Source: Chloroflexota bacterium
GTDB lineage: Bacteria > Chloroflexota > Anaerolineae > Anaerolineales > Villigracilaceae
Reading direction: 5' to 3'
Assembly: GCA_013388855.1 (NCBI GenBank)
Contig: JACAEM010000018.1
Location: forward strand, 62,001-126,000
Length of the DNA stretch: 64,000 nt
Numbering within the stretch: position 1 is the first letter of the stretch; each line of letters begins with the position of its first letter. Positions 13,834 to 52,824 of this stretch are shown piece by piece. A program made the position numbers and the translations under genes. Under the pieces are notes generated by a model. It searched no databases, had not been told where the DNA came from, and saw only the letters and a program-made list of their open reading frames with translations.

Positions 13834-13856
13834 TATCGATTATCGAATATCTACTC
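13834..13856. repeat. CGATTATCGAATATC repeat between purL and purQ
   Basis: The 31-bp gap is almost wholly TATCGATTATCGAATATC plus CTCTAAC. It resembles the CGAATATCGA units inside carA (27926-27970). No clear ribosome-binding site remains for purQ. Confidence 0.45.
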
Positions 13857-13864
13857 TCTAACTC

Positions 13865-14662
13865 ATGAAACCTCAAACCCTTATCATCCAAGCCCACGGC
13901 ACCAACCGCGATTACGACGTTGCCGAAGCCTTAACTCTCGCTGGCGCAGACCCACATCCCGTTCCACTCAATGACTTGCGCGCTGGCAAAAAACGCTTCG
14001 CCGATTATCAAATGCTCGTCGTCGCGGGTGGATTTTCTTACGCAGACTCGCTCGGTGCAGGCAAACTCCTTGCCCTCGATTTGAACTCCTATTTCAATGA
14101 AGAGATTTCCGCTTTTGTCGAATCAGGCAAACCCGTTATTGGAATTTGTAATGGGTTTCAGGCGCTGGTCAAGTCGGGGATTCTGCCAGGCGAATCCCCC
14201 TCTCCTGGCGGGAGAGGGGCTAGGGGTGAGGGCGCGACATTGACCTTCAACCAACAAGGTCACTTTGAATGCCGTTGGGTAACTCTAAAACCTGTATCTC
14301 AACATTGTATTTGGACAAAAGATTTAAAGACTATTATCGAATGCCCCGTTGCACATGGTGAAGGAAACTTCCAAATCAACAACCAACAACAAATTACCAA
14401 TTACCTATCACCCGACCAAATCGCCCTCACCTACGTCCACCCCGACGGCTCGCCCGCCAACGGAGAGTACCCTGCCAACCCAAACGGCTCCATGCTCGAC
14501 ATCGCTGGCATTTGCAACCCGCAAGGCAATGTACTCGGACTCATGCCCCACCCTGAGAATCACATTTATCCGCACCAACATCCACAATGGACGCGCGGCG
14601 TGAAAGGCAACAGCGGATTGGCGCTGTTTAAAAATGGCGTGAGATATGCTTCGCAAGTCTAA
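13865..14662 (+). CDS. purQ: FGAM synthase glutaminase subunit
   Basis: The 265-residue product is a class I glutamine amidotransferase that feeds ammonia to PurL. VVAGGFSYADSLGAGK is near residue 57, the nucleophile lies in GICNGFQAL near residue 95, and the His/Glu pair in LMPHPENH near residue 228. NGEYPANPNGS is conserved. Between SGILPG and ATLTFN, where relatives have a short turn, residues ~110-124 (ESPSPGGRGARGEG) are encoded by a G/C-rich repeat. A second, shorter repeat follows INNQQ. Confidence 0.93.
   Translation: MKPQTLIIQAHGTNRDYDVAEALTLAGADPHPVPLNDLRAGKKRFADYQMLVVAGGFSYADSLGAGKLLALDLNSYFNEEISAFVESGKPVIGICNGFQALVKSGILPGESPSPGGRGARGEGATLTFNQQGHFECRWVTLKPVSQHCIWTKDLKTIIECPVAHGEGNFQINNQQQITNYLSPDQIALTYVHPDGSPANGEYPANPNGSMLDIAGICNPQGNVLGLMPHPENHIYPHQHPQWTRGVKGNSGLALFKNGVRYASQV
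14196..14232. repeat. CCCTCTCC palindromic repeat in purQ (in frame)
   Basis: CCCCCTCTCCTGGCGGGAGA followed by GGGGCTAGGGGTGAGGG. The core CCCTCTCC-TGGC-GGGAGAGGG is a hairpin of a kind seen between genes in many bacteria. Here it lies inside purQ without breaking the frame. Confidence 0.75.
14391..14405. repeat. AAATTACCAATTACC unit in purQ (in frame)
   Basis: This partial copy of the AATTACC repeat is read QITNYL, between GEGNFQINN and the conserved QIALTYV segment. Confidence 0.45.
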
Positions 14663-14708
14663 AGTCAAAGGTCGAAGGTCAATGACTTTAGACTTTTGAC
14701 CTTTGACC
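14657..14708. repeat. GTCAAAGGTC inverted repeat after purQ
   Basis: GTCTAAAGTCA (14657-14667) pairs with TGACTTTAGAC (14683-14693), and AAAGGTCGAAGGTCAA recurs inverted as TTTTGACCTTTGACC. It includes the purQ stop codon and ends 12 bases before the purC start. Confidence 0.6.
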
Positions 14709-14720
14709 TATAAGGAAATT

Positions 14721-15686
14721 ATGATCGCAAAAGAAGAGCTCCTCAAATTACTACCGCAGGCATTAGGTAAAACAAACCTTCCGCTTCCCAACAAACAGAC
14801 AGGCAAAGTCCGCGAGTGGTATGACCTACCTGACGATAAACGACTCATCGTCACCACGGACAGGCTCTCTGCTTTTGACCGTATTCTCGCGAAAGTCCCA
14901 TACAAAGGGCAAGTCCTCAATCAACTCTCCGCTTGGTGGTTCGAGCAGACTAAAGACATCATTGCCAATCATCTCATCTCAACCCCCGACCCGAATGCTT
15001 CAGTCGTCACCACCGTTCAGCCACTGCCCATCGAAGTCATCGTGCGCGGATATATTACGGGCGTCACGTCCACGGCGTTGTGGTATCGCTACTCCATCGG
15101 CGAGCGGACTATTTACGGCTATGACTTCCCTGATGGCTTGAAAAAGAATCAAGCCTTACCAGAGCCGATCATCACCCCCACCACCAAAGGCGGCGAAACG
15201 GGGCATGATGAACGCCTCACCTGTGCCGAAGTCACCGAAAACGGCTTGCTCGACGAAAAGACTTGGAATCAAGTTCAAGCCGCCGCGCTTGCCATCTTCA
15301 AACGCGGACAGGAAGTTGCCCAAAAAGCAGGCTTGATTCTCGTGGACACCAAATACGAATTTGGCATTGCGCCCGACGGCAGTGTGATGCTCATTGACGA
15401 AGTCCACACACCCGATTCATCCCGTTATTGGAAAGCGGATTCCTACCAAGAAAATTTCAATGCAGGCGAAGAACCCGAAAACTTCGACAAAGAATTCGTC
15501 CGCATTGCATACGCTGAAAAAGGCTATCGCGGCGATGGTGACATCCCATCCATGCCGAATGAACTATGGGCAGCGGCGAGTGAACGTTACATCACCATTT
15601 ATGAAATGCTCACAGGCAAAACCTTTGAGGCGGGCGTATATCCCATTGAAGAACGCCTGCTCAACAATCTGAAAGAGTTGCTATGA
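14721..15686 (+). CDS. purC: SAICAR synthetase
   Basis: The enzyme joins CAIR and aspartate to give SAICAR. The 321-residue product is of the longer type: GKVREWYDL near the start, [12 protein letters not shown] near residue 51, [10 protein letters not shown] near 114 and [12 protein letters not shown] near 228. ATG 14721 is preceded by TAAGGAAATT; an earlier TTG at 14703 falls within the upstream repeat and is unlikely. The stop overlaps purE by 4 bases. Confidence 0.95.
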
Positions 15687-16183
15687 CCCATCCGCTCATT
15701 GCCATCATCATGGGTTCCAAGTCTGATTGGGAGACGATGGAACATGCGACCAAAACGCTCGACCAATTAAACATTCCCTACGAAGTCAAAATCGTTTCGG
15801 CGCATCGCACACCTGACCTGCTGTTTCAATTCGCCGAGTCCGCTCACGAGCGCGGCATTGAAGTCATCATTGCTGGCGCGGGCGGCGCGGCGCATCTGCC
15901 TGGAATGACCGCCGCCAAGACGCATCTGCCCGTGCTGGGTGTGCCCGTCCAATCGAAGGCGCTCAACGGCATGGATTCCCTCCTCTCCATCGTGCAAATG
16001 CCCGCGGGCATTCCCGTTGGCACACTGGCTATCGGGCGCGCGGGCGCGGTCAATGCGGCACTGCTCGCGGCGTCCATCGTTGTCAACAAACACAGTGAAC
16101 ATCTCGACGCCCTGCTCGCCTATCGCGCCGCGCAGACCCAATCCGTTTTGGATAACCCCGACCCGCGAGAAGATAACGGATGA
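15683..16183 (+). CDS. purE: N5-CAIR mutase (class I PurE)
   Basis: The 166-residue product rearranges N5-CAIR to CAIR, the step after Pur[13 protein letters not shown] is at the N-terminus, SAHRTPD near residue 39, [12 protein letters not shown] near 63 and [20 protein letters not shown] near 91, all typical of class I. It overlaps both purC and purK by ATGA junctions. Confidence 0.96.
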
Positions 16184-17271
16184 TGAACATTGGCATTTTG
16201 GGAGCAGGACAACTGGGACGCATGCTCGCCCTGGCTGGATACCCGCTCGGACATCGCTTCCGCTTCCTAGACCCCGCCTCCGACTCACCCGCAGGCTTGC
16301 TCGCTGACCATCTGGCATTGGACTACTCTGACACATCCGCTCTCGAGCAGTTTGCTAATGGATTAGATGTAGTGACATACGAGTTTGAGAACGTCCCTGT
16401 GGAGGCGGCGCGTTACTTGGAAAAGTTTGTTCCTGTGTATCCGCCGCCAATGGCATTGGAAAAAGCACAAGACCGTTTCGTTGAAAAATCCTTTTTTCAA
16501 GAGTTGGGGATACCTGCGCCGAAGTTTGAAAGCGGATTATCGAATCGGATAGCGGATGGAATCGGATTCCCTGCTGTGTTGAAGACACGCCGCATGGGGT
16601 ATGACGGGAAGGGGCAGGTGGTGGCGCACTCACAGGCAGAGTTAGAAAGCGGATTATTGAAACCGATAGCAGATAAAGCGGATTCGTTTATCTTGGAAGA
16701 GTTCGTTGCATTTGATCGTGAACTATCCATTATTGCCGTTCGGGGTAAATCTGGCGGTACGAAGTTTTATCCGTTGATCGAGAATCGTCATCGTGATGGG
16801 ATCTTGCGGTTGTCGCTGGTGATCGGAAATATCACGGCGGAGTTGCAAAAGCAGGCAGAGGAATATGCCCAACGGATTTTGTCTGCGTTGGATTATGTCG
16901 GTGTGCTGACGATTGAATTTTTTGAGAAGGACGGTCAATTGCTGGCAAATGAAATGGCGCCGCGCGTTCACAACAGCGGGCACTGGACAATCGAAGGGGC
17001 GATCACGTCTCAGTTCGAGAATCAGGTTCGGGCGGTGTGTGATGCGCCGCTTGGGAGCACGAGTCCGCTTGGAGTGTGCGCCATGGTCAATTTGGTGGGA
17101 ACGCTTCCAGACGAGACATCCATCTTGAAAATTGAGGGAGCGCATTTGCATTTGTACGATAAGGCTCCGAGACCAAAGCGCAAGCTGGGGCATATTACTT
17201 TGGTTGAAAAAGACGTTACGACGTTGAATAAAAAATTGGATGAGATAAGGAAAGTGTATGCTGAATTTTAG
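16180..17271 (+). CDS. purK: N5-CAIR synthetase
   Basis: This ATP-grasp enzyme carboxylates AIR with bicarbonate and [16 protein letters not shown] is at the N-terminus, then [12 protein letters not shown] near residue 137, [13 protein letters not shown] near 177 and [18 protein letters not shown] near 255. The 363 residues are of normal length, yet residues 117-130 and 156-169 are each encoded by a family A repeat (both read ESGL....IAD). They replace linker segments that in relatives carry unrelated helices. Confidence 0.95.
16528..16568. repeat. Family A repeat in purK, copy 1 (in frame)
   Basis: GAAAGCGGATTATCGAATCG then GATAGCGGATGGAATCGGATT. It is the reverse complement of the purL and purM copies and is read [14 protein letters not shown] at residues 117-130. 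Confidence 0.8.
16645..16684. repeat. Family A repeat in purK, copy 2 (in frame)
   Basis: GAAAGCGGATTATTGAAACC then GATAGCAGATAAAGCGGATT. It lies 77 bp after copy 1 in the same orientation and frame, read [15 protein letters not shown]. Confidence 0.8.
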
Positions 17272-18727
17272 TGAGTCGCCGAAGGAAGAATGTGGCGTGA
17301 TCGGAATTTTTGCGCCAAATGAAGATGTGGCGCGAATGACGTTCTTTGGCTTGTACGCCTTGCAGCATCGCGGACAGGAAGCGGCGGGCATGGCAGTTGC
17401 CGACGGGCATGTGATGACAATGCACAAGGGCATTGGTTTGGTGTCGCAGGTGTTTACGCCAAACACGACGGCAGAGTTGAAGGGACACTACGCCATTGGA
17501 CATACGCGCTATTCAACCACAGGGTCATCATCGTTACGAAATGCACAGCCGTTCATGATCGAGACCATTCATGGTCCGCTGGCGTTGGCGCATAACGGCA
17601 ACTTGGTCAACTCGGCAGAGTTGCGACAGGAATTGATGGAACAAGGCGTCGGGTTTTCATCGTCGTCGGATACCGAAGTGATGACGATGATGTTGGCGCG
17701 CAACGGCGGCGTGACGTGGGAAGAGCGCATCAAGACCGCGATGAAGAAATGGATTGGTGCGTATTCGTTGGTGATCTTGACACACGATTGTGTGTACGCG
17801 GTGCGCGACCCGTGGGGGTTTCGTCCGCTGTGTATTGGGATGCTGCCGAGCGGCGGACATGTCGTGGCTTCGGAGATGGGTGCGTTGCAGACGTTGGGCT
17901 GCGAAGCCATCCGCGACGTGAAGCCTGGCGAAGTGGTTTCGTTATCGAACAATGCGTTGAAGGTGATGCAAGCCATTAAACCAGAACAGCCTTCAGCCAT
18001 GTGTGTGTTCGAGCATATTTATTTTGCAAGACCCGATCAGACTTGGGACGGGATCAATGTCCATCATGTGCGGCAGAGGTTGGGGGAGGAGTTGGCGCGC
18101 GAAGTGGAAAGCGGATTACAGAAACGGATAGCGGATGGCGAAGCAGATAAGCGAATGGGAAAAGGATTTGCGGATGTGGTGATTCCTGTGCCTGATTCGT
18201 CTGTCCCTGCGGCGATTGGGTTTTCGCGGGTGACAGGGATTCCGTACAATGATGGCTTTATCAAGAACAGATATGTTGGGCGGACGTTTATTGAACCAAC
18301 GGATTCACTGCGCAAGCGCGGCGTGGCGTTGAAGTTCAATGTGATTAATGAGAATGTCCGCGATAAACGTGTGGTGATGATCGATGACAGTATCGTACGT
18401 GGCAATACGACGGGTCCGCTGATCAAGTTATTGAAAAATGCAGGCGCGAAGGAAGTACATGTGGCAATCACCTGCCCGCCGATCGCGCATCCATGTTTCA
18501 TGGGCGTGGACATGGGCAGGCATGAAGATTTGATCGCCCACAATCGGACGGTGGAGGAAATCCGCGAACACGTCGGCGCAGATAGTTTGTATTATTTGTC
18601 TGTTGAAGGCATGATGAAAGCGGTTCGGCGCAAGGATGGATTTTGTCAGGCGTGTTTTACGGGGCAGTATCCCATCCCTGTGGATTTGATGTCTGTAAAG
18701 ACGGGTTTTGAAAGAGGGACTAAATAG
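17258..18727 (+). CDS. purF: Amidophosphoribosyltransferase
   Basis: This enzyme commits PRPP to purine synthesis, making phosphoribosylamine with ammonia from glutamine. Cys12 (SPKEECGVIGIF) is the nucleophile after an 11-residue propeptide. GHTRYSTTG lies near residue 82, HNGNLVNS near 111, RDPWGFRPL near 182, and the PRPP motif VMIDDSIVRGNTT near 372. It overlaps purK by 14 bases. Residues 284-307 (ESGLQKRIADGEADKR onward), between EELAREV and ADVVIPVPDSS, are extra compared with PurF of Bacillus type and come from a family A repeat. Confidence 0.96.
   Translation: MLNFSESPKEECGVIGIFAPNEDVARMTFFGLYALQHRGQEAAGMAVADGHVMTMHKGIGLVSQVFTPNTTAELKGHYAIGHTRYSTTGSSSLRNAQPFMIETIHGPLALAHNGNLVNSAELRQELMEQGVGFSSSSDTEVMTMMLARNGGVTWEERIKTAMKKWIGAYSLVILTHDCVYAVRDPWGFRPLCIGMLPSGGHVVASEMGALQTLGCEAIRDVKPGEVVSLSNNALKVMQAIKPEQPSAMCVFEHIYFARPDQTWDGINVHHVRQRLGEELAREVESGLQKRIADGEADKRMGKGFADVVIPVPDSSVPAAIGFSRVTGIPYNDGFIKNRYVGRTFIEPTDSLRKRGVALKFNVINENVRDKRVVMIDDSIVRGNTTGPLIKLLKNAGAKEVHVAITCPPIAHPCFMGVDMGRHEDLIAHNRTVEEIREHVGADSLYYLSVEGMMKAVRRKDGFCQACFTGQYPIPVDLMSVKTGFERGTK
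18107..18176. repeat. Family A repeat in purF (in frame)
   Basis: GAAAGCGGATTACAGAAACG then GATAGCGGATGGCGAAGC, continuing with GCGAATGG and TTTGCGGAT. It is read ESGLQKRIADG, the same frame as both purK copies. Confidence 0.8.
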
Positions 18728-18731
18728 ACAA

Positions 18732-18769
18732 CGGATTATTGAAACGGATATACGGATAAGGAAACGGAT
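18732..18769. repeat. Family A repeat between purF and purD
   Basis: CGGATTATTGAAACGGATAT then ACGGATAAGGAAACGGAT. It fills most of the 48-bp gap, and the only Shine-Dalgarno-like bases for purD (AAGGAAA at 18758-18764) lie inside it. Confidence 0.75.
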
Positions 18770-18775
18770 GAAATT

Positions 18776-20038
18776 ATGAATGTTTTGGTCATTGGTTCGG
18801 GCGGGCGGGAACATGCAATTGTATGGAAGGTCAGCCAGTCGCCGAATTTGACAAAGTTATATGCGTTGCCTGGCAACCCAGGGACAGCGGAATTGGCAGA
18901 GAATGTCAGTGAAATATCTGTGGATGACCACGCGTCAGTCGCTTCGTTTTGCAAGGACAAACAGATTGACTTGGTCATCGTCGGACCCGAAGCGCCATTG
19001 GCGGCAGGGTTGGTGGATTCGCTTTCAGCGGAAGGAATCCACTGCTTCGGACCGAGTCAAGCCGCGGCGCAGATTGAGGCGTCGAAGTCTTTTGCCAAGG
19101 ATTTCATGGCGCGGCACAACATCCCCACCGCAAAGTACGCGACTTTTTCTGATTACGATGAAGCCGTTCATTATTTGCAATCCGTTGATTATCCAATCGT
19201 TATCAAGGCATCGGGACTGGCGGCAGGCAAGGGTGTGATCTTACCTGAAACGGATGAAGAAGCAAAATCAACGCTTGAAGACATTTTGTTGAAGAAAGCC
19301 TTTGGCGAAGCGGGCGCGGAAGTAGTCATCGAAGAACGAATGACGGGACAGGAAGTCTCGCTTATGGCGTTCACGGATGGAACATCTGTTGTGCCAATGT
19401 TACCTGCGCAAGACCACAAACGTTTGCTGGATGGCGATAAAGGATTGAACACGGGCGGCATGGGTGCATATGCGCCTGCGCCGATATTTACATCTGAGAT
19501 GATGGACGAAGCGATTGAAAAAGTTTTGAAACCCGCCGTGAACGGAATGAAAAGCGAAGGCAATTCATTCGTGGGTGTGTTGTATGCGGGCTTGATGCTC
19601 ACGCCGAATGGCATCCGCACATTGGAGTTCAATTGTCGTTTTGGCGACCCTGAAACGCAGGTGGTGCTTCCGCTTTTGGAAACGGACTTGATTGAAATCA
19701 CCGCAGCCTGTGCAGATGGAAATTTAGCCAACATCAATATTCAATGGAAAAACAACGCGGCAGTCTGTGTGGTGCTGGCAAGCAAAGGCTACCCAGAAAA
19801 AGTTGAAAGCGGCAAAGTCGTAACCATCGAGAAACTTCCTGATGATATGGTTTGTTTTCATGCAGGCACGAAAATGGAAAATGGACATCTTGTCACATCG
19901 GGCGGGCGTGTGTTCGGTCTGACGGCGTGGGCAGACACGATTGATGAGGCAATCAGAGTTGTATATGCCAATATCGAAAAAGTTGATTTCGCGGGAAAAC
20001 AATACAGAAATGACATTGCTCGCAAGGCATTAAAATAA
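18776..20038 (+). CDS. purD: Phosphoribosylamine--glycine ligase
   Basis: The 420-residue ATP-grasp enzyme makes GAR from phosphoribosylamine and glycine. VIGSGGREHAIVWKV is at the N-terminus, ALPGNPGTAE near 25, GPEAPLAAGLVD near 74, IKASGLAAGKGV near 143, DHKRLLDGDKGLNTGGMG near 212 and LEFNCRFGDPETQ near 285. It lies between two family A repeats. Confidence 0.96.
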   Translation: MNVLVIGSGGREHAIVWKVSQSPNLTKLYALPGNPGTAELAENVSEISVDDHASVASFCKDKQIDLVIVGPEAPLAAGLVDSLSAEGIHCFGPSQAAAQIEASKSFAKDFMARHNIPTAKYATFSDYDEAVHYLQSVDYPIVIKASGLAAGKGVILPETDEEAKSTLEDILLKKAFGEAGAEVVIEERMTGQEVSLMAFTDGTSVVPMLPAQDHKRLLDGDKGLNTGGMGAYAPAPIFTSEMMDEAIEKVLKPAVNGMKSEGNSFVGVLYAGLMLTPNGIRTLEFNCRFGDPETQVVLPLLETDLIEITAACADGNLANINIQWKNNAAVCVVLASKGYPEKVESGKVVTIEKLPDDMVCFHAGTKMENGHLVTSGGRVFGLTAWADTIDEAIRVVYANIEKVDFAGKQYRNDIARKALK

Positions 20039-20043
20039 AATCA

Positions 20044-20067
20044 GATTACTGAAACGAATAGCGGATT
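20044..20067. repeat. Family A repeat, left of the GxxExxY gene
   Basis: GATTACTGAAACGAATAGCG plus GATT. It matches the reverse complement of 20736-20759 at 20 of 24 positions, so the two form an inverted pair around the GxxExxY coding region. AAGGAG (20077-20082), just after it, is the ribosome-binding site. Confidence 0.75.
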
Positions 20068-20088
20068 TTTTGCCATAAGGAGCGATGA

Positions 20089-21759
20089 ATGGGTAATCAA
20101 AAATCGGATTTCATAAAGACCGAGCATGACGACCTGACTTATAAAGTCAATGGACTGGCAATGCAGGTTCATAATGAATTAAAGCCAGGTCATGCAGAGA
20201 AGTTTTATCAACGTCGGTTAAGAGATTTATGCCTTGCAAGCGGATTGGCGGCTGAAATCGAAAAACGGGTGGATGTACGGATAGAAGATAAGAAAATTGG
20301 CTATTTGATTCTCGATTTATGGGTTGAAGAGTCTCTGGTGGTGGAGTGCAAGGCTTTCTCTCATCATTTATCTGTCGATGAAGCTGGGCAGGTAATGACA
20401 TATCTTACTGCCACAGGAACGCCTGTTGGATTGTTGTATAACTTCGGACGAAAATCTCTTGAGTTCAAACGTATTTTTCCATCCAAAGATGTTCAAGATT
20501 GGCAAAAGTTTTTATATCGCTCCATTCATGTCATCCCTGGGATGACTTTGCCGCCCTTACCAGAGCCGCGTGGAAAAGGCAATAAACCTTCCGTTCCCAT
20601 TCCCTCAATCCGTTTCAGCGTTGTAAAGTCAACGACCGTTGTTAGTATTCCATCTCCCAGCGGCGCGGCAGTGCGGGCGTCTATTAAGCGGGCAGAGAAA
20701 TATTCAAAAGAAAAAGAAGAAGCTAAATCCGATTCAATCCGCTATCCGCTTCAACAATCCGATTATGCCTCAGCAGGTGTGGACATTGACGCAGGCAACC
20801 GCGCCGTTGAACTTATGAAAGAATCCGTCCGCTCCACCTACAACCAATCCGTGCTCGCGGGCATTGGTTCGTTCGGCGGTCTCTTCGATGTCTCCGCCCT
20901 CAAGCAAATGGACAGCCCTGTGCTTGTCGCCTCCACCGACGGTGTTGGCACCAAGGTCAAACTCGCCGCGTCCGTCGGTCGTTATCGCGGCATCGGTCAT
21001 GACATCGTCAATCACTGCATCAACGATATTCTTGTGCAAGGCGCGCGTCCGCTTTTTTTCATGGATTACTTCGCCACCTCAAAATTGAATCCCGAACAAA
21101 CCGCGGATGTGGTGACGGGCATAGCCGAAGCCTGCAAAGAGTCGGGCATCGCGTTGCTCGGCGGCGAGACGGCGGAAATGCCCGACGTGTATCGTGACGG
21201 AGAATTTGACGTGGCTGGCACGATCGTCGGCGTATTGGAACGCTCCCGCCTCCTTCCCCGCCCAAACCTGCTCACTGGCGACCTGATCCTTGGTCTACCC
21301 TCCAGCGGACCGCACACCAACGGCTACTCGCTCATCCGCAAAGTCTTTGAAGGCGCAGACTTGGAATCCATTCACCCCGAACTCAACTGCTCACTAGCTG
21401 ACGCATTACTCGCGCCGCATCGTTCTTACTTCAATGATCTATATTCGTTTTTGCCGCATATCAAAGCCCTGGCTCATATCACAGGCGGCGGATTCATCGA
21501 AAACATTCCGCGCATACTGCCAGAAAATCTGAACGCAGTCATCCACTTGAACTCATGGCAAATCCCGCCGCTGTGGAAGTTGATTCAAGAAACAGGCAAC
21601 ATATCCACTGAAGAAATGTACCGCGTCTTCAACATGGGCATCGGCATGATCGTCATCGTAGATAAATCTTTTGCCTACGAACTGCAAGCATCCATCCCAG
21701 AACCCATCTTCATCATCGGCGAACTAACCAAAGGTGAACGAAAAGTCATCCTAGCTTAA
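20089..21759 (+). CDS. purM: GxxExxY-domain protein fused to AIR synthetase (PurM)
   Basis: The C-terminal ~335 residues (about 222-556) are PurM, which cyclises FGAM to AIR: YASAGVDIDAGNRAVELMK, VASTDGVGTKVKLA, LLGGETAEMPDVY near 357 and TGGGFIENIPR. Ahead of it are ~150 residues of a GxxExxY protein (PD-(D/E)XK-like fold): TYKVNGLAMQVHNEL, GHAEKFY (the name motif), LILDLWVEE and VVECKAF (the D...ExK signature), and TATGTPVGLLYNFG. A Pro/Lys-rich linker of ~65 residues ends in a family A repeat (SDSIRYPLQQSD) that runs straight into PurM. There is no in-frame ATG at the PurM start; the ATG at 20764 is out of frame. One fused product is therefore the simplest reading, although an internal GTG/TTG start cannot be excluded. 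AAGGAG precedes ATG 20089 by six bases. Confidence 0.9.
   Translation: MGNQKSDFIKTEHDDLTYKVNGLAMQVHNELKPGHAEKFYQRRLRDLCLASGLAAEIEKRVDVRIEDKKIGYLILDLWVEESLVVECKAFSHHLSVDEAGQVMTYLTATGTPVGLLYNFGRKSLEFKRIFPSKDVQDWQKFLYRSIHVIPGMTLPPLPEPRGKGNKPSVPIPSIRFSVVKSTTVVSIPSPSGAAVRASIKRAEKYSKEKEEAKSDSIRYPLQQSDYASAGVDIDAGNRAVELMKESVRSTYNQSVLAGIGSFGGLFDVSALKQMDSPVLVASTDGVGTKVKLAASVGRYRGIGHDIVNHCINDILVQGARPLFFMDYFATSKLNPEQTADVVTGIAEACKESGIALLGGETAEMPDVYRDGEFDVAGTIVGVLERSRLLPRPNLLTGDLILGLPSSGPHTNGYSLIRKVFEGADLESIHPELNCSLADALLAPHRSYFNDLYSFLPHIKALAHITGGGFIENIPRILPENLNAVIHLNSWQIPPLWKLIQETGNISTEEMYRVFNMGIGMIVIVDKSFAYELQASIPEPIFIIGELTKGERKVILA
20727..20761. repeat. Family A repeat at the GxxExxY/PurM junction (in frame)
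   Basis: AATCCGATTCAATCCGCTAT then CCGCTTCAACAATCCG. It is the inverted partner of 20044-20067, and its reading frame joins the GxxExxY linker to PurM. Confidence 0.8.
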
Positions 21760-21768
21760 ACATCTGCC

Positions 21769-21787
21769 ATCCGTTTCAATAATCCGC
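21769..21787. repeat. Half family A repeat between purM and purH
   Basis: ATCCGTTTCAATAATCCGC, a half unit, lies in the 45-bp gap. It is followed by AAGGA, ten bases before ATG 21805. Confidence 0.65.
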
Positions 21788-21804
21788 TGCACAAGGAATA
21801 CATC

Positions 21805-22977
21805 ATGAAATCTCTCACCCTCCGCTACGGAACAAACCCCAATCAATCCCCTGCCCGCATCTACATGCAAGACGGCAGCGACCTGCCCCTATCCGTTCTG
21901 AACGGTTTGCCAGGCTACATCAACCTGCTGGACGCGCTCAACGCCTGGCAACTGGTTCGGGAGTTGAAGCAGGTCATCGGTCAGCCTGCGGCGGCTTCGT
22001 TCAAACATGTCAGCCCGTCAGGTGCCGCCGTCGCCGTCCCGTTGACCGACATCCTCAAGAAAATCTACTTCGTGGATGACATGGAACTCTCGCCGCTCGC
22101 CACCGCCTACACCCGCGCCCGCGGCGTGGACAGGATGTCATCGTTCGGCGATTTCATTGCGTTATCAGATACAGTAGATGTACCGACTGCAAAACTGATC
22201 TCGCGCGAAGTATCCGACGGCGTGATAGCGCCTGCATATGAACCCGAAGCGCTGGAAATTTTGAAGAAAAAGAAACAAAGCAAATATGCGGTTGTGCAAA
22301 TTGACCCTGCCTACGAACCGCAGTTGACCGAGACGCGCCAAGTCTTTGGCGTGAGCATGGAACAGCGCCGCAATGACCGCATTGCGACTCGTGACGACTT
22401 TGCCAACATCGTGACCAAGAAAAAAGACCTGCCCGAATCGGCGGTGCGCGATATGTTCATCGCATGGATCACGCTCAAGTTCACGCAATCCAATTCCGTG
22501 TGCTATGTAACCGATGGACAGACTATCGGCGTTGGCGCGGGGCAGCAATCGCGGGTGCATTGTGCTCGTCTCGCTGGCTCCAAAGCAGACTTGTGGCGTC
22601 TGCGCCAGCATCCGTCCGTGCTCGCGCTTCCATTCAAATCCGATGTTAAACGCCCCGACCGCGACAACGCCATTGACCAGTTCCTGCAACCCGATGTCAC
22701 CGATGAAGAGAAAAAGAATTGGGTAAATGTCTTCACTGAAATCCCGAAGCAACTAACTTCCGAAGAACGCCGTGTATGGCTTGACGGTCTCACCGATGTC
22801 ACGCTCGGCTCCGACGCCTTCTTCCCTTTCCGCGACTCGATCGACCGCGCTGCCAAGAGCGGAGTGAAATACGTCCTGCAACCTGGCGGCTCCAACCGCG
22901 ACGAAGATGTCATTGCCGCTTGCGACGAATACGGCATGACCATGGTCTTCTCAGGTCTACGCCTATTCCATCACTAA
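21805..22977 (+). CDS. purH: AICAR transformylase, stand-alone
   Basis: The 390-residue product corresponds to the C-terminal, formyl-transferring half of Pur[17 protein letters not shown] at the start, [14 protein letters not shown] near residue 68, [10 protein letters not shown] near 113, [13 protein letters not shown] near 223, [15 protein letters not shown] near 243 and [13 protein letters not shown] near 356. It formylates AICAR to FAICAR with 10-formyl-THF. No IMP cyclohydrolase domain is attached; that is encoded separately at 23645, beyond purN. Confidence 0.93.
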
Positions 22978-23002
22978 ACTGGCTACTGTTCACTGGATAC
23001 TG
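22975..23002. repeat. CTGGCTACTG-type repeat before purN
   Basis: AACTGGCTACTGTTCACTGG followed by ATACTG, a run of near-repeated ACTGGATACTG units. It starts at the purH stop and runs up to the purN ATG, leaving no Shine-Dalgarno sequence. Confidence 0.45.
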
Positions 23003-23617
23003 ATGATTTCTCGTCTCGTCGTCCTCATCTCTGGCAATGGTTCCAATCTCCAAGCCATCCTTGACGCCTGCAAGTCAGGCGAACTCCCTGCATCCGTTGT
23101 CTGTGTTATCACCAACAAAGCGGACGCCTATGGACTCGTCCGCGCCAAAAATGCAGGAGTCGAAGCCATTCACTTTGCCAAACTCACAACCGAGACTCGT
23201 CAAGAATATGACAAACGCCTAGCCAATTATGTGACTACCAAACAACCCGACTACATCATCCTCGCTGGCTGGATGCGCATTCTTTCCTCTGCCTTTCTTT
23301 CGTCTTTCCCGAACAAAGTCATCAACCTCCATCCCGCCCTGCCCAATACCTTCCCTGGCACACACGCCATCGAACGCGCCTACGAAGCATATCAACGCGG
23401 CGAAATCCGTTACACAGGCGTTATGGTTCACCTCGTCCCCGACGAAGGCGTGGACAACGGTCCCGTGCTGGCAACGGAAATTGTTCCAATCCACAAGGAA
23501 GATACTCTGGAATCACTCGAAACCCGTCTCCACCAAACAGAACATACGCTCCTCGTAAAAACTATAAAGACCTTGCTCGAGAAATCCGTTTTACCATCCG
23601 ATTATCCGCTTCACTAA
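23003..23617 (+). CDS. purN: GAR transformylase
   Basis: The 204-residue product transfers a formyl group from 10-formyl-THF to GAR. LISGNGSNLQAILDA is at the N-terminus, LAGWMRILS near residue 87, NLHPALPNTFPGTHAIERA near 110 (Asn and His catalytic) and VHLVPDEGVDNGPVL near 141. The last ~11 residues and the stop codon come from a family A repeat (23583-23621), so the native end was probably replaced. Confidence 0.95.
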   Translation: MISRLVVLISGNGSNLQAILDACKSGELPASVVCVITNKADAYGLVRAKNAGVEAIHFAKLTTETRQEYDKRLANYVTTKQPDYIILAGWMRILSSAFLSSFPNKVINLHPALPNTFPGTHAIERAYEAYQRGEIRYTGVMVHLVPDEGVDNGPVLATEIVPIHKEDTLESLETRLHQTEHTLLVKTIKTLLEKSVLPSDYPLH

Positions 23618-23621
23618 TCCG
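23583..23621. repeat. Family A repeat forming the purN 3' end
   Basis: AATCCGTTTTACCATCCGAT then TATCCGCTTCACTAATCCG. It encodes SVLPSDYPLH and supplies the purN TAA at 23615-23617. Confidence 0.75.
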
Positions 23622-23644
23622 TTACCCAAAAGGAAACTTAACTG

Positions 23645-24226
23645 ATGCCTACTGCAATCCTCTCCGTCCACAACAAAACTGGACTCATCGAATTCGCCCA
23701 GGGACTGACCTCCCTCGGCTGGACTCTGCTCGCCTCTGGCGGGACCTCGAACCTGCTTCGCCAAAATAACATTCCCGTCACCGAAGTCGCGGACTACACC
23801 AAGTCGCCCGAAATCCTCGGCGGACGGGTCAAGACTCTCCACCCCGCCATCCACGGCGGACTCCTCGCCCGCCCCACAAACGAAGACCACCAGCAACTCC
23901 TCAACCTCGGCTGGGACTACATTAACCTTGTCGCCGTAAATCTCTATCCATTTGAAGAGACCATTGCTAAGCCAAACGTCACCTACGCCGACGCCATCGA
24001 AAACATCGACATCGGCGGTGTCACCCTCATCCGCGCCGCAGCGAAGAATCACGAACGTGTTACTCTTGTCTGCGACCCCGCCGATTACCCATCCGCTCTC
24101 GCTGAAATCCGCGCGGGCGGCATATCCGCTCAAACCCGCGCCAAACTCGCCATCAAAGGCTTTGCCTCCACAGCACATTACGATACAGCCATTTATGCAT
24201 ACTTAAAACAACAAATGGAAGCGTAA
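23645..24226 (+). CDS. purH: IMP cyclohydrolase, stand-alone
   Basis: The 193-residue product is the MGS-fold N-terminal half of PurH, which closes FAICAR to [18 protein letters not shown] is at the start, [11 protein letters not shown] near residue 29, [20 protein letters not shown] near 53, and [17 protein letters not shown] near 118. The chain ends where the AICAR transformylase domain would begin in bifunctional PurH. AAAGGAAAC precedes ATG 23645. Confidence 0.94.
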
Positions 24227-24292
24227 ATCCGCTTATCCGTATTGCCGCAGACAATCCGTTGAGTCCATCCGCTATCCGCTTCCAAAATCCGC
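24226..24292. repeat. Two family A repeats between IMP cyclohydrolase and guaB
   Basis: AATCCGCTTATCCG begins at the stop codon (24226), followed by a complete unit at 24253-24291 (AATCCGTTGAGTCCATCCGC then TATCCGCTTCCAAAATCCG). The pair fills the gap up to the guaB ribosome-binding site. Confidence 0.75.
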
Positions 24293-24312
24293 TCCCCCGA
24301 AAGGAAACCATA

Positions 24313-25797
24313 ATGAACGAAGAACTTTTTGACCGCTTTGACTCCCTTACCTTCGACGACGTCCTCATCGTCCCTGGCTATACCGAAGTACTGCCCAACG
24401 AAACCGACGTGCGCGTCCAACTCACGCCGACGATTCACCTCAACATCCCCATCCTCTCCGCCGCCATGGATACCGTCACCGAAGCGCGGCTGGCAATTGC
24501 GCTGGCACGAGAAGGCGGCATGGGCATCATCCACCGCAACATGCCGCCCGAGAAACAAGCCGCCGAAGTGGAAAAGGTCAAGCGCTCGCAGTCAGGCATG
24601 ATCGTTGAACCCATCAGCCTCCAGCCCGATGCGCCGCTCAGCAAAGCCGAAGAAATCATGTCCACCTATCACATCAGCGGCGTGCCCATCACCGATGACA
24701 AAGGCAAACTCGTCGGCATCCTCACCAATCGTGATATCCGCTTTGTGGACTCTTCTGATTACAACCTGCCTGTCAGTCAGTTCATGACGGGCGGAGAAAA
24801 ACTCGTCACCGCCAAAGTGGGTATCTCTGCCAAAGACGCTCAAGACATTTTGCAAAAGTATCGCATCGAAAAACTTCCACTTGTCGATGAACATGGCATC
24901 CTCAAAGGCTTGCTCACCGTCAAAGACATACAAAAAGCCCGCGAATATCCCAATGCCGCCACCGACTCCAAAGGTCGCCTCCTCGTTGGCGCAGCCGTCG
25001 GTGTGGGCAAGGATGTCGAAACCCGCGTTGACCTCATGCTCAAAGCAGGCGTGGACGCAGTCACCATTGACACCGCGCATGGACATTCCAAAGGCGTGCT
25101 CGAAGCCATTCGCCGCATCAAAGGCGCATGGAAAGACCTGCCCGTCTTCGCGGGTAACGTGGTCACAGCCGAAGGCGTGGATGCGCTTGTCGAAGCAGGA
25201 GCAGATGCAATCAAAGTCGGAGTCGGTGCGGGTTCCATCTGCACTACCCGCATCGTGTCGGGCGCAGGCATGCCACAAGTCTCCGCCATCTTCGAATGTT
25301 CACGCGCTGCACAAAAACACGGCGTCTCCATCATCGCCGATGGCGGCATCAAGTTCAGCGGCGACATCGTCAAAGCCATTGTCGCAGGCGGCAATGCCGT
25401 CATGCTTGGCAGTCTGCTCGCGGGACTGGAAGAAGCGCCTGGCGAAGTGATGATGTATGAAGGTCGCCGCTTCAAGGAATATCGCGGCATGGGCAGTCTC
25501 GGCGCGATGAAAGGTTACGGCGTCGATCGCTATGCCACAGGTCAAAGCGGAAGCGGCAAACTCGTGCCTGAAGGCATCGAAGGTCGCGTGCCGTATAAAG
25601 GCGCGCTTGGCGAATATGTCTATCAACTCGTCGGCGGTTTGCGCTCGGGCATGGGCTATGCAGGCGCCGCCTCGCTCGAAGACCTGCGTACCAAAACCCG
25701 CCTCACGCGCATCACCAACGCGGGTCTCATCGAAAGCCACCCGCATGATGTTATTATTACCAAAGAAGCTCCAAACTATCAGTTGAGCCAGCGATAA
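24313..25797 (+). CDS. guaB: IMP dehydrogenase
   Basis: The 494-residue enzyme oxidises IMP to XMP, the first step towards [21 protein letters not shown] is at the N-terminus, two CBS domains span about 95-205, and the catalytic Cys is in [15 protein letters not shown] near residue 310, followed by [13 protein letters not shown] and the flap EGRVPYKG. I chose ATG 24313 because GAAAGGAAAC precedes it; an upstream TTG at 24259 would read the repeat. The coding ends 3 bases before purB. Confidence 0.96.
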
Positions 25798-25800
25798 CAC

Positions 25801-27162
25801 ATGACCCTTCACCTTCTCTCTCCTTTGGATGGACGCTACGCCGAGACCACATCGCCTCTGCGGGATCACTTCTCTGAGTTTGCTTTTCTACGCGACAGAG
25901 TGCGCGTCGAACTTAACTTTTTGCCTGCTCTTTCCAAAACAGGCTTGGTGCGCCCTTTGAGCGATTCTGAGTCCGCGCACCTTAAATCAATTCTTATAAA
26001 TTTCTCAGATGCCGACGCGGAACTGATCCTCGAATACGAACGCAAAACCCGCCACGACGTCAAAGCCATTGAGTATTTCATCCAAAACAAGTTACAAGAT
26101 ACATCGTTACAAGATACCATCCCATGGATTCACTTCGGATTGACCTCCGAAGATACAAACAGCATTGGTCAAGCTATATCGTTGAATGAGTCACGAGACA
26201 AAGTAATTCTCCCTACTCTCAATTCTCTAATCCTTCATCTCTCCGAACTAGCTCTTCGCTATAAATCCGTGCCCATGCTCGCCCGCACGCATGGACAGTT
26301 CGCCGTACCGACAACTTTGGGAAAAGAATTTGCCGTTTACATCGCCCGCCTCAAAAAGACACGAGACGAAATTGCCGCACATAAATTTGAAGCCAAGTTG
26401 ACAGGCGCCGTTGGCAACTTCAATGCCCTGCAAGCCGCCGCGCCCAATGTGGATTGGATTTCATTCAGCAAAGAATTTGTCTCCAGTTTTGGACTTGAGC
26501 CGAATCTGCTCACCATCCAAATCCTCCCCTACGATAACTGGATACGCTACTTCGACCTCATCCGCTTGACCAATTCCATTCTCATTGACTTTGCCCAAGA
26601 CATCTGGCGCTACATCAGCGACGGCTATCTCAAACAAGCCGTCGTCGCAAGCGAAGTCGGTTCGTCCACCATGCCGCAGAAGGTCAACCCGATTGACTTT
26701 GAAAACGCCGAAGGCAATCTCGGCGTGGCGAATTCGCTCTTCGCGCATTACGCCCAAAAGTTGACCGTCTCACGCCTGCAACGCGACCTCTCCGATTCCA
26801 CCGTCCGCCGCACGTTTGGCACGGCGTTGGGTCACAGCCTGTTGGCATGGACCAACTTCCAGCGCGGTCTGAAGCGTATTGCTCCCGATGAGGAAAAGCT
26901 CACAGCCGAGTTGAATGCCCATTGGGAAGTTGTCTCCGAAGGCGCACAAACCATCCTGCGTGCCGCTGGAAAATCAGACGCCTACGAATCGCTCAAAGAA
27001 CAAACTCGCGGACGAGTCCTCACCGAGACCGATTACAAGAATTGGTGTAACTCAATTGATGTGGATGAACCAACACGCGAAAAATTGAAAGCTTTATCGC
27101 CTGAAACCTATATCGGGTTGGCTGTTCAATTGACTGACAACCTGTTGAATAATCGCGACTGA
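25801..27162 (+). CDS. purB: Adenylosuccinate lyase
   Basis: The 453-residue fumarase-family enzyme cleaves SAICAR and adenylosuccinate. LSPLDGRYAETTSPLRDHFS is of the E. coli PurB type, RKTRHDVKAIEYF lies near residue 81, ARTHGQFAVPTTLGKE near 161, and the signature SSTMPQKVNPIDFEN near 287. The segment LQDTSLQDT near residue 100 is encoded by a direct repeat (GTTACAAGATAC at 26091 and 26106), perhaps another small repeat unit. Confidence 0.95.
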   Translation: MTLHLLSPLDGRYAETTSPLRDHFSEFAFLRDRVRVELNFLPALSKTGLVRPLSDSESAHLKSILINFSDADAELILEYERKTRHDVKAIEYFIQNKLQDTSLQDTIPWIHFGLTSEDTNSIGQAISLNESRDKVILPTLNSLILHLSELALRYKSVPMLARTHGQFAVPTTLGKEFAVYIARLKKTRDEIAAHKFEAKLTGAVGNFNALQAAAPNVDWISFSKEFVSSFGLEPNLLTIQILPYDNWIRYFDLIRLTNSILIDFAQDIWRYISDGYLKQAVVASEVGSSTMPQKVNPIDFENAEGNLGVANSLFAHYAQKLTVSRLQRDLSDSTVRRTFGTALGHSLLAWTNFQRGLKRIAPDEEKLTAELNAHWEVVSEGAQTILRAAGKSDAYESLKEQTRGRVLTETDYKNWCNSIDVDEPTREKLKALSPETYIGLAVQLTDNLLNNRD

Positions 27163-52003: not shown

Positions 52004-52824
52004 TTCTCGCAGAGCCTTTCCCATTCAGGGATGCTCAACGTCTCTGCGCGGCGCTGCGGATCGATGCCTGCCTGGGTGAGCAAGTTTGCCGCGTTGGCAG
52101 GGGGGATGCGCAAGCCGGAGGAAAGCGAATTGCGGAGCGTCTTTCTTTTCTGGCTGAAACCGGCTTTGATCACTTCAAAAAATGTTTCAAGCAGTTCGCG
52201 TTTTACCTGCGGTTCCGGGTGGACATCGAGACAGAGGACAGCCGAATCTACTTTGGGAGCGGGGAAGAACGCACCCGCCGGGATGCGCGCCGCAATGCGC
52301 GGTGTGCCGTAGACTTGCACGCTCAAAGCCAGCAGACTCATGCCACCGGGCGCGGCGCAGATTCGGTCCGCAACCTCTTTTTGGATGGTCAGCACAATAC
52401 GGCGCGGCTGGGGTTTGTTTTCCAGCAGATGGCGGATGATGGCGGATGTGATGTAGTAGGGAATGTTCGCGACAACCAGATAGCCGGGCCGATTGACCAA
52501 CTCCGATGGTTTGAACTCGAGAATGTCGCCGTGGATTAAACGGATATTGGTGTACGGGGCGAGAACAGCCTTCAATAGCGGGAACAGGTTCCCATCCAGT
52601 TCGACCGCTACAACTTCCCCGGCGGCGACTGCCAGATAGCGCGTCAAACTTCCCAGCCCGGGACCGATTTCCAGCACGGAGTCTGTCGGCTGGAGCTCTG
52701 CGGCGGAGGCGATCTTTTCCAGGGCGATGGGGTCTTGCAAAAAATTCTGCCCGAGGCTTTTATCGGCGCGTAAGCCATGTCGCTTCAATAAATTTGCGAC
52801 GTTAAGAGGCGGAATTTCGTTCAT
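51979..52824 (-). CDS. rsmA: 16S rRNA (adenine1518/1519-N6) dimethyltransferase
   Basis: The ~281-residue product dimethylates two adjacent adenines near the 3' end of 16S rRNA. SLGQNFLQDP near residue 23 begins the SAM fold, VLEIGPGLGSLTRYL near 49 is motif I, and VVANIPYYITSAII near 115 is the NxPY-type catalytic motif. FSQKRKTLRNSL lies near the end. I chose ATG 52824 because it overlaps the upstream LCP stop (ATGA). Confidence 0.95.
   Translation of the reverse strand: MNEIPPLNVANLLKRHGLRADKSLGQNFLQDPIALEKIASAAELQPTDSVLEIGPGLGSLTRYLAVAAGEVVAVELDGNLFPLLKAVLAPYTNIRLIHGDILEFKPSELVNRPGYLVVANIPYYITSAIIRHLLENKPQPRRIVLTIQKEVADRICAAPGGMSLLALSVQVYGTPRIAARIPAGAFFPAPKVDSAVLCLDVHPEPQVKRELLETFFEVIKAGFSQKRKTLRNSLSSGLRIPPANAANLLTQAGIDPQRRAETLSIPEWERLCEKIKTDSHH

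Follow-up and report, generated by a model that had tools for sequence, protein, structure and literature searches.

GxxExxY nuclease-fold genes, their flanking inverted repeats and a fusion to PurM: a candidate class of palindromic mobile DNA

Why should a nuclease-fold domain be translated as the front part of PurM, between two inverted copies of a repeat that recurs along the same gene cluster? The question is raised by a stretch of 64,000 nucleotides from a Chloroflexota bacterium (contig JACAEM010000018.1, positions 62,001 to 126,000; hereafter the window, its genome being G000), in which a single frame of 556 aa (20089-21759) joins a GxxExxY domain of the PD-(D/E)XK fold to the purine-synthesis enzyme PurM. 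An initial annotation, made from the letters alone, had read this layout as a small mobile unit, comparable in logic to repetitive extragenic palindromic (REP) elements and their REP-associated tyrosine transposases (RAYTs). We know of no assigned role for the GxxExxY family, which is defined by profiles, and no paper linking it to repeats was found in the literature searched, mostly without subscription papers and preprints. The comparisons presented below suggest an overlooked kind of mobile DNA, because the repeat sequence changes in step with the GxxExxY protein. The gene and its flanking repeat units probably form one selfish cassette.

GxxExxY genes and their repeat dialects in other genomes

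Inverted repeats around GxxExxY genes were scored, a score of at least 17 being taken as strong. This level was reached at 21 of 30 GxxExxY loci of relatives, compared with 3.6% of 1532 positional windows, 2 of 29 PIN genes and 1 of 27 purM-like genes. In a run of 31 loci that included the window's own, the latter scored negative, its right arm being more than 200 bp away. A census of 41 related genomes yielded 134 loci (from 153 match rows, some loci holding two rows, with short fragments and unlisted rows left out), and 93 of the 127 that have both flanks scored at least 17, the other seven lacking a full flank. Outside this group, the same was true of 52 of 76 loci, against 6.9% of 5396 control windows; these come from the best 80 by score of at least 575 loci, a choice that favours the query's own subfamily, and four of the 80 had no flank for this test. 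According to their record titles, the 80 loci span Bacteroidetes, Acidobacteria, Planctomycetota, Verrucomicrobia, Myxococcales, Chloroflexi, Methanothrix and Methanophagales, among others. The expectation that GxxExxY genes elsewhere would be flanked by cognate repeats is borne out for most loci in both the census and the other taxa. Tandem double GxxExxY domains within one frame of 273-332 aa were also encountered, at L396, L397, L398 (G027) and L399 (G029).

The inverted arms are built from short units. In the 80 loci, CRCNRAG, a word formulated after viewing the flanks, occurs at 18.0/kb upstream on the forward strand and at 17.2/kb downstream on the reverse strand, about 14-fold above a background of 1.2-1.3/kb. 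At least two occurrences lie on each side of the gene at 51 loci, and on at least one side at 75. A stricter pattern, CCRCNGAGNNCRCNGAG, had already been set when the 80 loci were collected, and is not fitted to them; it matched 25 times in 31.6 kb of their flanks, at 16 of the 80 loci, compared with a single match in 277.8 kb of background, and its reversed control matched in neither. When 58 left and 50 right arms were compared, successive units were mostly 8-11 bp apart, and the arms, in the manner of terminal inverted repeats, tended to end alike on the outside, near TTYACC.

At many loci, one of four words predominates (GAG, AAG, GAAT or GGAT). These words are referred to here as dialects, and 92 of the 134 census loci can be typed by them. 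Where both arms hold at least two units, the dialect is the same on the two sides in 62 of 65 loci, 17.6 being expected. Paralogs of one genome, G004, carry different and mostly pure dialects, with GAG six times at L309, AAG seven times at L314, GGAT nine times at L310 (others twice) and GAAT four times at L313 (others once). Dialect also follows the protein. On a tree of 123 rows, obtained from 149 proteins (148 usable frames of 153 loci plus the window's) after 26 with no or a rare label were set aside, dialect changes 15 times compared with 46.5 times after shuffling, and none of 200 shuffles was as low. A dereplicated tree of 31 proteins below 60% identity gave 7 changes against 16.0, again with none of 200 shuffles as low; taken singly on this tree, GAG, GGAT and AAG each cluster, with 0, 0 and 3 of 500 shuffles, respectively, giving as few changes. 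The window protein groups with the GGAT proteins. As judged from these associations, repeat and GxxExxY protein co-evolve.

Occupation of one orthologous site varies among relatives. Thirty loci 5' of an E2 gene were fetched, nine of them without a readable gap. Among the 21 readable genomes, three are empty at this site (21 bp), six carry solo palindromes, two a GxxExxY cassette, eight an S23 unit (seven confirmed by profile, that of G005 by resemblance) and one, the window's genome, a decayed copy. The remaining site, at L156 of G014, holds another palindrome (TCATTGCGAGG...). Folding as single-stranded DNA was seen for three solo palindromes (z of -3.5 to -5.8). In the 41 genomes, GAG-type copies number 0-147 per genome, compared with 0-3 for the control, and their median is 20 in the 19 genomes with a GAG-type gene versus 3.5 in the 22 without (p = 0.003).

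The S23 genes just mentioned (TIGR02436) encode a four-helix protein and share the layout. Strong inverted repeats surround 18 of 30 S23 loci of relatives (L066-L095), with repeat words that differ from those of GxxExxY, such as CAGTNA, AACCTNC, CAGTNATCAGT, AACCTTCCAACC and GCGGTCAGC. S23 and its repeats appear to be another case in which a gene is paired with repeats in this way. Transposase genes of the Y1_Tnp family were compared as well. Thirty loci were sampled and five dropped for length; 4 of the 25 usable ones reached a score of 17, and 4 had at least three units, all GAG, compared with 2 and 1 of 22 PIN genes in the same test. HUH/RAYT genes were thus rejected as movers of these units, since Y1 genes seldom carry them.

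An alignment of 40 sequences, the window's included, shows D76 and E86 to be invariant and K88 nearly so; we take D76 with E86/K88 to be the catalytic D and ExK of the PD-(D/E)XK fold. Modelled by AlphaFold2 together with its linker, the window domain gave a poor result (pLDDT 64.5), and the fold assignment therefore rests on a canonical member, L242 (pLDDT 96). A Foldseek search with the L242 model returned no match in the PDB at E <= 0.001, the best being SSO0001 at 2.3e-3. A second structural comparison also placed SSO0001 (4ic1) first, with Z 10.1, followed by restriction-endonuclease-like folds that include the archaeal HJC resolvase (1gef) at Z 7.1, values below 8 being such as a merely common arrangement may give. 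SSO0001 is a Cas4 protein. No relative in the PDB was found by sequence, and PADLOC returned no match for the window domain and only weak Cas4 matches for the canonical member. A junction or hairpin as substrate would fit the inverted arms, but function does not follow from fold.

The GxxExxY-PurM cassette between purD and purM

The initial annotation had placed a GxxExxY coding region between purD and purM and joined it to PurM, and both parts of the frame were recovered by profile. Residues 15-129 score 88 bits with TIGR04256 and 81 bits with PF13366, above the curated cut-offs of 35 and 22 that define family membership, and residues 225-548 match TIGR00878 (purM) at 361.8 bits. Genome-wide profile searches found this frame to be both the only GxxExxY gene and the only match above the PurM cut-off in the 4.03-Mb genome. 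The same fusion exists in G019, G021 and G024, which represent three further genera within the family, making four genera in all. The domain differs between the window and G021 by a nonsynonymous divergence (dN) of 0.047, at 0.91 amino acid identity and with synonymous divergence (dS) saturated. The nuclease domain is under purifying selection, and the fusion is old and selected.

Two details of the fusion were originally put too strongly. The join was said to contain no internal ATG, which is true from the right repeat onward, where the next in-frame ATG lies at 20815, within the PurM domain (a GTG lies at 20779), but not of the whole join, the linker having an in-frame ATG at 20542 in all four fusion genomes. 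The right-hand repeat was also said to keep the frame open. It is indeed read in frame, yet cannot be the whole reason for the open frame, because the linkers of the G019 and G024 fusions hold other ATCCG units, and this repeat was ruled out as the maker of the fusion in the sense first stated. A relative without the cassette is known, as had been anticipated: in G018, there is no GxxExxY gene between purD and purM, the two genes overlap in ATGA, and purM is unfused. No PurM above the profile cut-off was found in the 17 same-genus genomes (G001-G017), though the window's genome has a pur cluster, which may reflect a gain or repeated loss in the others. In G020, G033 and G037, PurD and PurM motifs share one frame of 771-793 aa (L209, L212, L213).

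The segment between the two inverted repeats has a phylogenetic affinity of its own. Overall, purC, purD and purM of the window are closer to G019 than to G021 (0.89 vs 0.76, 0.76 vs 0.71 and 0.87 vs 0.82, respectively), purH1 is a tie and purN leans to G021. By contrast, the GxxExxY domain is closer to G021 than to G019 (0.91 vs 0.71), as is the linker (0.78 vs 0.52). Site by site, 170 of the 214 informative sites between the repeats (20044-20759) side with G021, compared with 112 of 275 in purD and 83 of 212 in purM (Fisher p = 7e-23 against all 495 outside sites, 8 of which fall beyond the given purD and purM ranges). The break points of this mosaic coincide with the two inverted repeats (Table 1). 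Since the segment within the repeats sides mostly with G021, and the purD and purM sequences next to it are nearer to G019, the alignment shows a cassette with its own history, one that was exchanged or replaced as a unit. The pattern tells of exchange or replacement and leaves the mechanism aside, and the odd partner could equally be the cassette of G019.

Table 1. Features of the purD-purM region and copies of the family A repeat, in window coordinates
Feature	Position	Strand	Remarks
Mosaic segment siding with G021	20023-20767	+	Top-scoring segment among 709 informative sites; score reached in 0 of 300 permutations
Left arm, family A repeat just 5' of the GxxExxY gene	20044-20067	+	20/24 match to right arm; mosaic left break 21 nt off
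GxxExxY (PDDEXK_3) domain, fusion residues 1-135	20089-20493	+	D76, E86 and K88 kept
Fusion linker	20494-20727	+	In-frame ATG at 20542; alignment of four fusion genera
Right arm, inverted family A units within linker, in frame into PurM	20728-20763	-	Mosaic right break 20767-20770
PurM part of fusion	20761-21759	+	TIGR00878; genome search
Family A copy inside purL	11334-11381	-	Open frame kept; no length difference from relatives
Family A copy, in frame within purK	16532-16567	+	
Family A copy, in frame within purK	16649-16683	+	
Family A copy, in frame within purF	18111-18175	+	Lies in an insert flanked by LGEELARE and ADVVIPVPDSS
Family A copy between purF and purD	18731-18769	+	
Family A copy between purM and purH	21762-21787	-	
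Family A copy spanning 3' end of purN	23584-23622	-	
Family A copies 5' of guaB	24227-24292	-	

The repeat itself, family A (AAAGCGGATTATTGAAACGGATAGCGGATGGAATCGGAT and variants), had been described as bracketing the domain in inverted orientation and as scattered through the surrounding 13 kb. Both statements hold: the arm at 20044-20067 is identical to the reverse complement of 20736-20759 at 20 of 24 bases, and ten copies lie between 11334 and 24292, five on each strand, a count that leaves out a weaker three-unit cluster at 24091-24129 and another at 52425. In the whole genome, all seven matches to a 17-bp family A core with at most two mismatches fall at C34:78534-85620 (window 16534-23620). 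At three mismatches there are 15, two of them near the fusion gene and 13 scattered, compared with about nine estimated by chance at equal base use and one in all for the reversed pattern. Of 16 overlapping matches to CGGATN{2,9}CGGATN{2,9}CGGAT, 14 lie at window 11334-24291, and the reversed control gave none. The family A copies of the window are not due to chance, and the genome-wide check proposed at the outset places the only GxxExxY gene inside the only dense family A cluster found. The term palindromic repeat needs qualification: what is palindromic is the two copies on either side of the gene taken together, and none of three single window copies, folded as single strands, had a hairpin of its own.

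Insertion of family A into coding DNA, as far as the alignments show it, is demonstrated for purF. There, an insert of varied length between the two peptides given in Table 1 is found in G000, G018, G019, G021 and G024, and is absent in G020, G025 and G039. PurK could be compared with G019 alone, which has an 81-bp tandem there; at L215:4231-4585, this tandem of CGGAT units adds repeats of the peptide STDGFAKRISGYETDEGNGLEADARI. As a separate observation, the coding-strand GC skew of third codon positions changes sign within the pur operon, where purD meets purM, in each of the four fusion genomes and in G018 as well (window 10945-27162; L208, L215, L216, L217), and ten of ten window repeats follow the local skew. 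The flip was first considered a trace of recurrent breaks; because G018 has an unfused purM and no GxxExxY gene there, it is no evidence for the nuclease and was set aside.

A proposed mechanism and its rivals

The scheme that we favour starts from a small PD-(D/E)XK-fold nuclease that would recognise arms made up of a few units, spaced by about 9 bp and inverted on both sides of its gene. These units follow the general consensus CRCNRAG, in many cases with TTYACC on the outer side, and take the form RCGGAT in the GGAT dialect of the window. The protein would cut at the arms, most likely when they are paired as a hairpin or cruciform, and repair would then copy the cassette, or a gene-less palindrome, to new places, or exchange it between homologous sites. 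Solo palindromes would be non-autonomous offspring of the cassette. In this genome family, one GGAT-dialect cassette may have entered the purD-purM junction and become translationally joined to PurM, keeping its nuclease domain under purifying selection and being exchanged as a unit, while its units, which also lie in frame in purK, purF and purL, would have spread locally. The idea of a small mobile unit made of a nuclease-fold protein and its own inverted repeat is supported by the results above; that the GxxExxY protein recognises and cuts the arms, and thereby causes their movement or copying, we infer. Taken further, GxxExxY proteins may be the enzymes of a class of palindromic mobile DNA that is widespread among bacteria and archaea and has no name as yet, acting as dialect-specific movers or converters of cassettes and solo palindromes, and their cassettes may capture host genes, purM being one example, by fusion. 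We incline towards this broader proposal somewhat more than against it.

A number of results weigh against the scheme. Not all loci conform: 34 of the 127 census loci with both flanks score below 17, and 13, the window's own among them, have neither an inverted repeat nor a dialect. On the dereplicated tree, GAAT taken alone is unclustered (97 of 500 shuffles as low). The 58 left and 50 right arms gave no convincing signal of target-site duplication (shared k of 3.98 compared with 3.50, sd 0.18, after shuffling), in a test confounded by the arms themselves, and very close pairs of empty and occupied genomes were absent from the sample compared. It was to be expected that genomes with many copies own a cognate gene, which holds for the medians but not for G011, with 147 GAG copies and a single GxxExxY gene untyped as GAG, nor for G040, with 66 copies and none of its GxxExxY genes typed GAG; some genomes with a GAG-type gene are low in copies, such as G006 with one. 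In the window, insertion is demonstrated in purF alone, the purL copy causes no length difference from relatives, and PurK is comparable with one relative. One Y1 locus, L418, has an inverted repeat and three GAG units. Finally, S23, an unrelated protein, has the same layout with other repeats, so that a shared mover or a common insertion habit is possible.

This last point keeps alive the main rival, in which the repeats are moved by another agent (a reverse transcriptase, an HUH transposase or host repair) and GxxExxY genes land in palindromes or stay beside them. S23 genes have this arrangement with repeats of their own and are also found at the intergenic E2 site, G011 is rich in copies without a GAG-typed gene, and some Y1 loci reach three GAG units. 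An agent indifferent to the protein would, however, have to contend with a dialect that tracks the GxxExxY tree, agrees between the two arms and differs among paralogs of one genome, and with PIN genes and Y1 transposases that are rarely flanked by these units. We regard it as unlikely.

Slightly less probable in our view is that the nuclease domain of the fusion lineage has been domesticated, with GxxExxY-PurM serving the host and the local repeats being fossils. The retention of the fusion in four genera under purifying selection is what this would lead one to expect, as is the confinement of family A to one cluster in the window's genome. The exchange of the cassette independently of purD and purM speaks against it, and so does G019, whose expanded 81-bp purK tandem and many CGGAT matches elsewhere indicate that the repeats are still or were recently active.

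Could the repeats instead be regulatory, as binding sites, terminators or attenuators by which GxxExxY would control its own gene and those nearby, or belong to a defence or addiction module, with their spread a by-product of recombination? The solo palindromes seen are intergenic, three of them can form single-strand hairpins, and the window units lie along one operon, all of which would suit such a role. In contrast, in-frame units occur inside purK, purF and purL too, a conserved D and ExK would be superfluous for a pure regulator, and the PADLOC result offers little to a defence function. This explanation appears improbable. Compositional or chance similarity in a repeat-rich region, which the short, degenerate units and background word rates above zero might suggest, is contradicted by the positional, reversed-pattern, PIN and shuffle controls and can practically be dismissed.

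Significance and comparison with known systems

If the cassette reading is right, an anonymous class of repeats (CCACAGAGACACAGAG-like, ACGGATTTCACGGAT-like and their kin) gains its mover. Tying GxxExxY to a repeat class whose dialects follow the protein gives the family a testable function, with the prediction that each GxxExxY protein should bind its own dialect, and would add a second enzyme type, besides the HUH RAYTs, for REP-like palindromes. Such proteins could also be a source of small nucleases whose sequence specificity follows a readable code. Here, one such cassette is tied to an essential gene, being fused to the sole PurM found in this genome.

The closest parallel is provided by RAYT/REP systems, with their REP, BIME or REPIN repeats. 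These are described as a small gene between two inverted repeats, with repeats and protein co-evolving, gene presence tending to track copy number, and solo copies that are inverted doublets able to fold as hairpins (Nunvar 2010, PMC2817692; Bertels and Rainey 2011, PMC3116915). GxxExxY genes resemble them in their inverted cognate repeats, in co-evolution and in hairpin-capable solo copies. The enzymes differ, as RAYTs have the HUH/Y1 transposase fold and GxxExxY the PD-(D/E)XK nuclease fold; the arms of GxxExxY are arrays of units about 9 bp apart of the CRCNRAG class; and its cassettes occur across many phyla of bacteria and in some archaea, the one in the window being joined to a housekeeping enzyme. 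Because the protein is PDDEXK_3 by profile and not an HUH/Y1 enzyme of the IS200/IS605 type, GxxExxY and its repeats stand outside REP/RAYT proper, and fit a system that works like it with an unrelated nuclease.

Three further systems invite comparison. Rickettsia palindromic elements (RPEs) are described as in-frame repeats in metabolic genes that add tolerated peptides (PMC10969869). Family A repeats likewise lie in frame in metabolic genes, with purF as the demonstrated insertion. No cognate enzyme is named for RPEs in the sections consulted of that paper, whereas the window dialect has a cognate GxxExxY gene, and each copy in the window is one arm, 24-66 bp long. The Coxiella intervening sequence (IVS), with its S23 protein, is described as a small single-gene element thought to be selfish (PMC4990558). 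The GxxExxY cassette is likewise small with one gene, and S23 genes of relatives of the window have the same inverted-repeat layout, although the protein is unrelated to GxxExxY and the repeat words differ. Finally, Cas4 and the archaeal Holliday junction resolvase share the PD-(D/E)XK fold, with a weak Cas4 profile match for the canonical member, and what sets GxxExxY apart from them is its lack of a PDB relative by sequence and its tie to inverted repeats.

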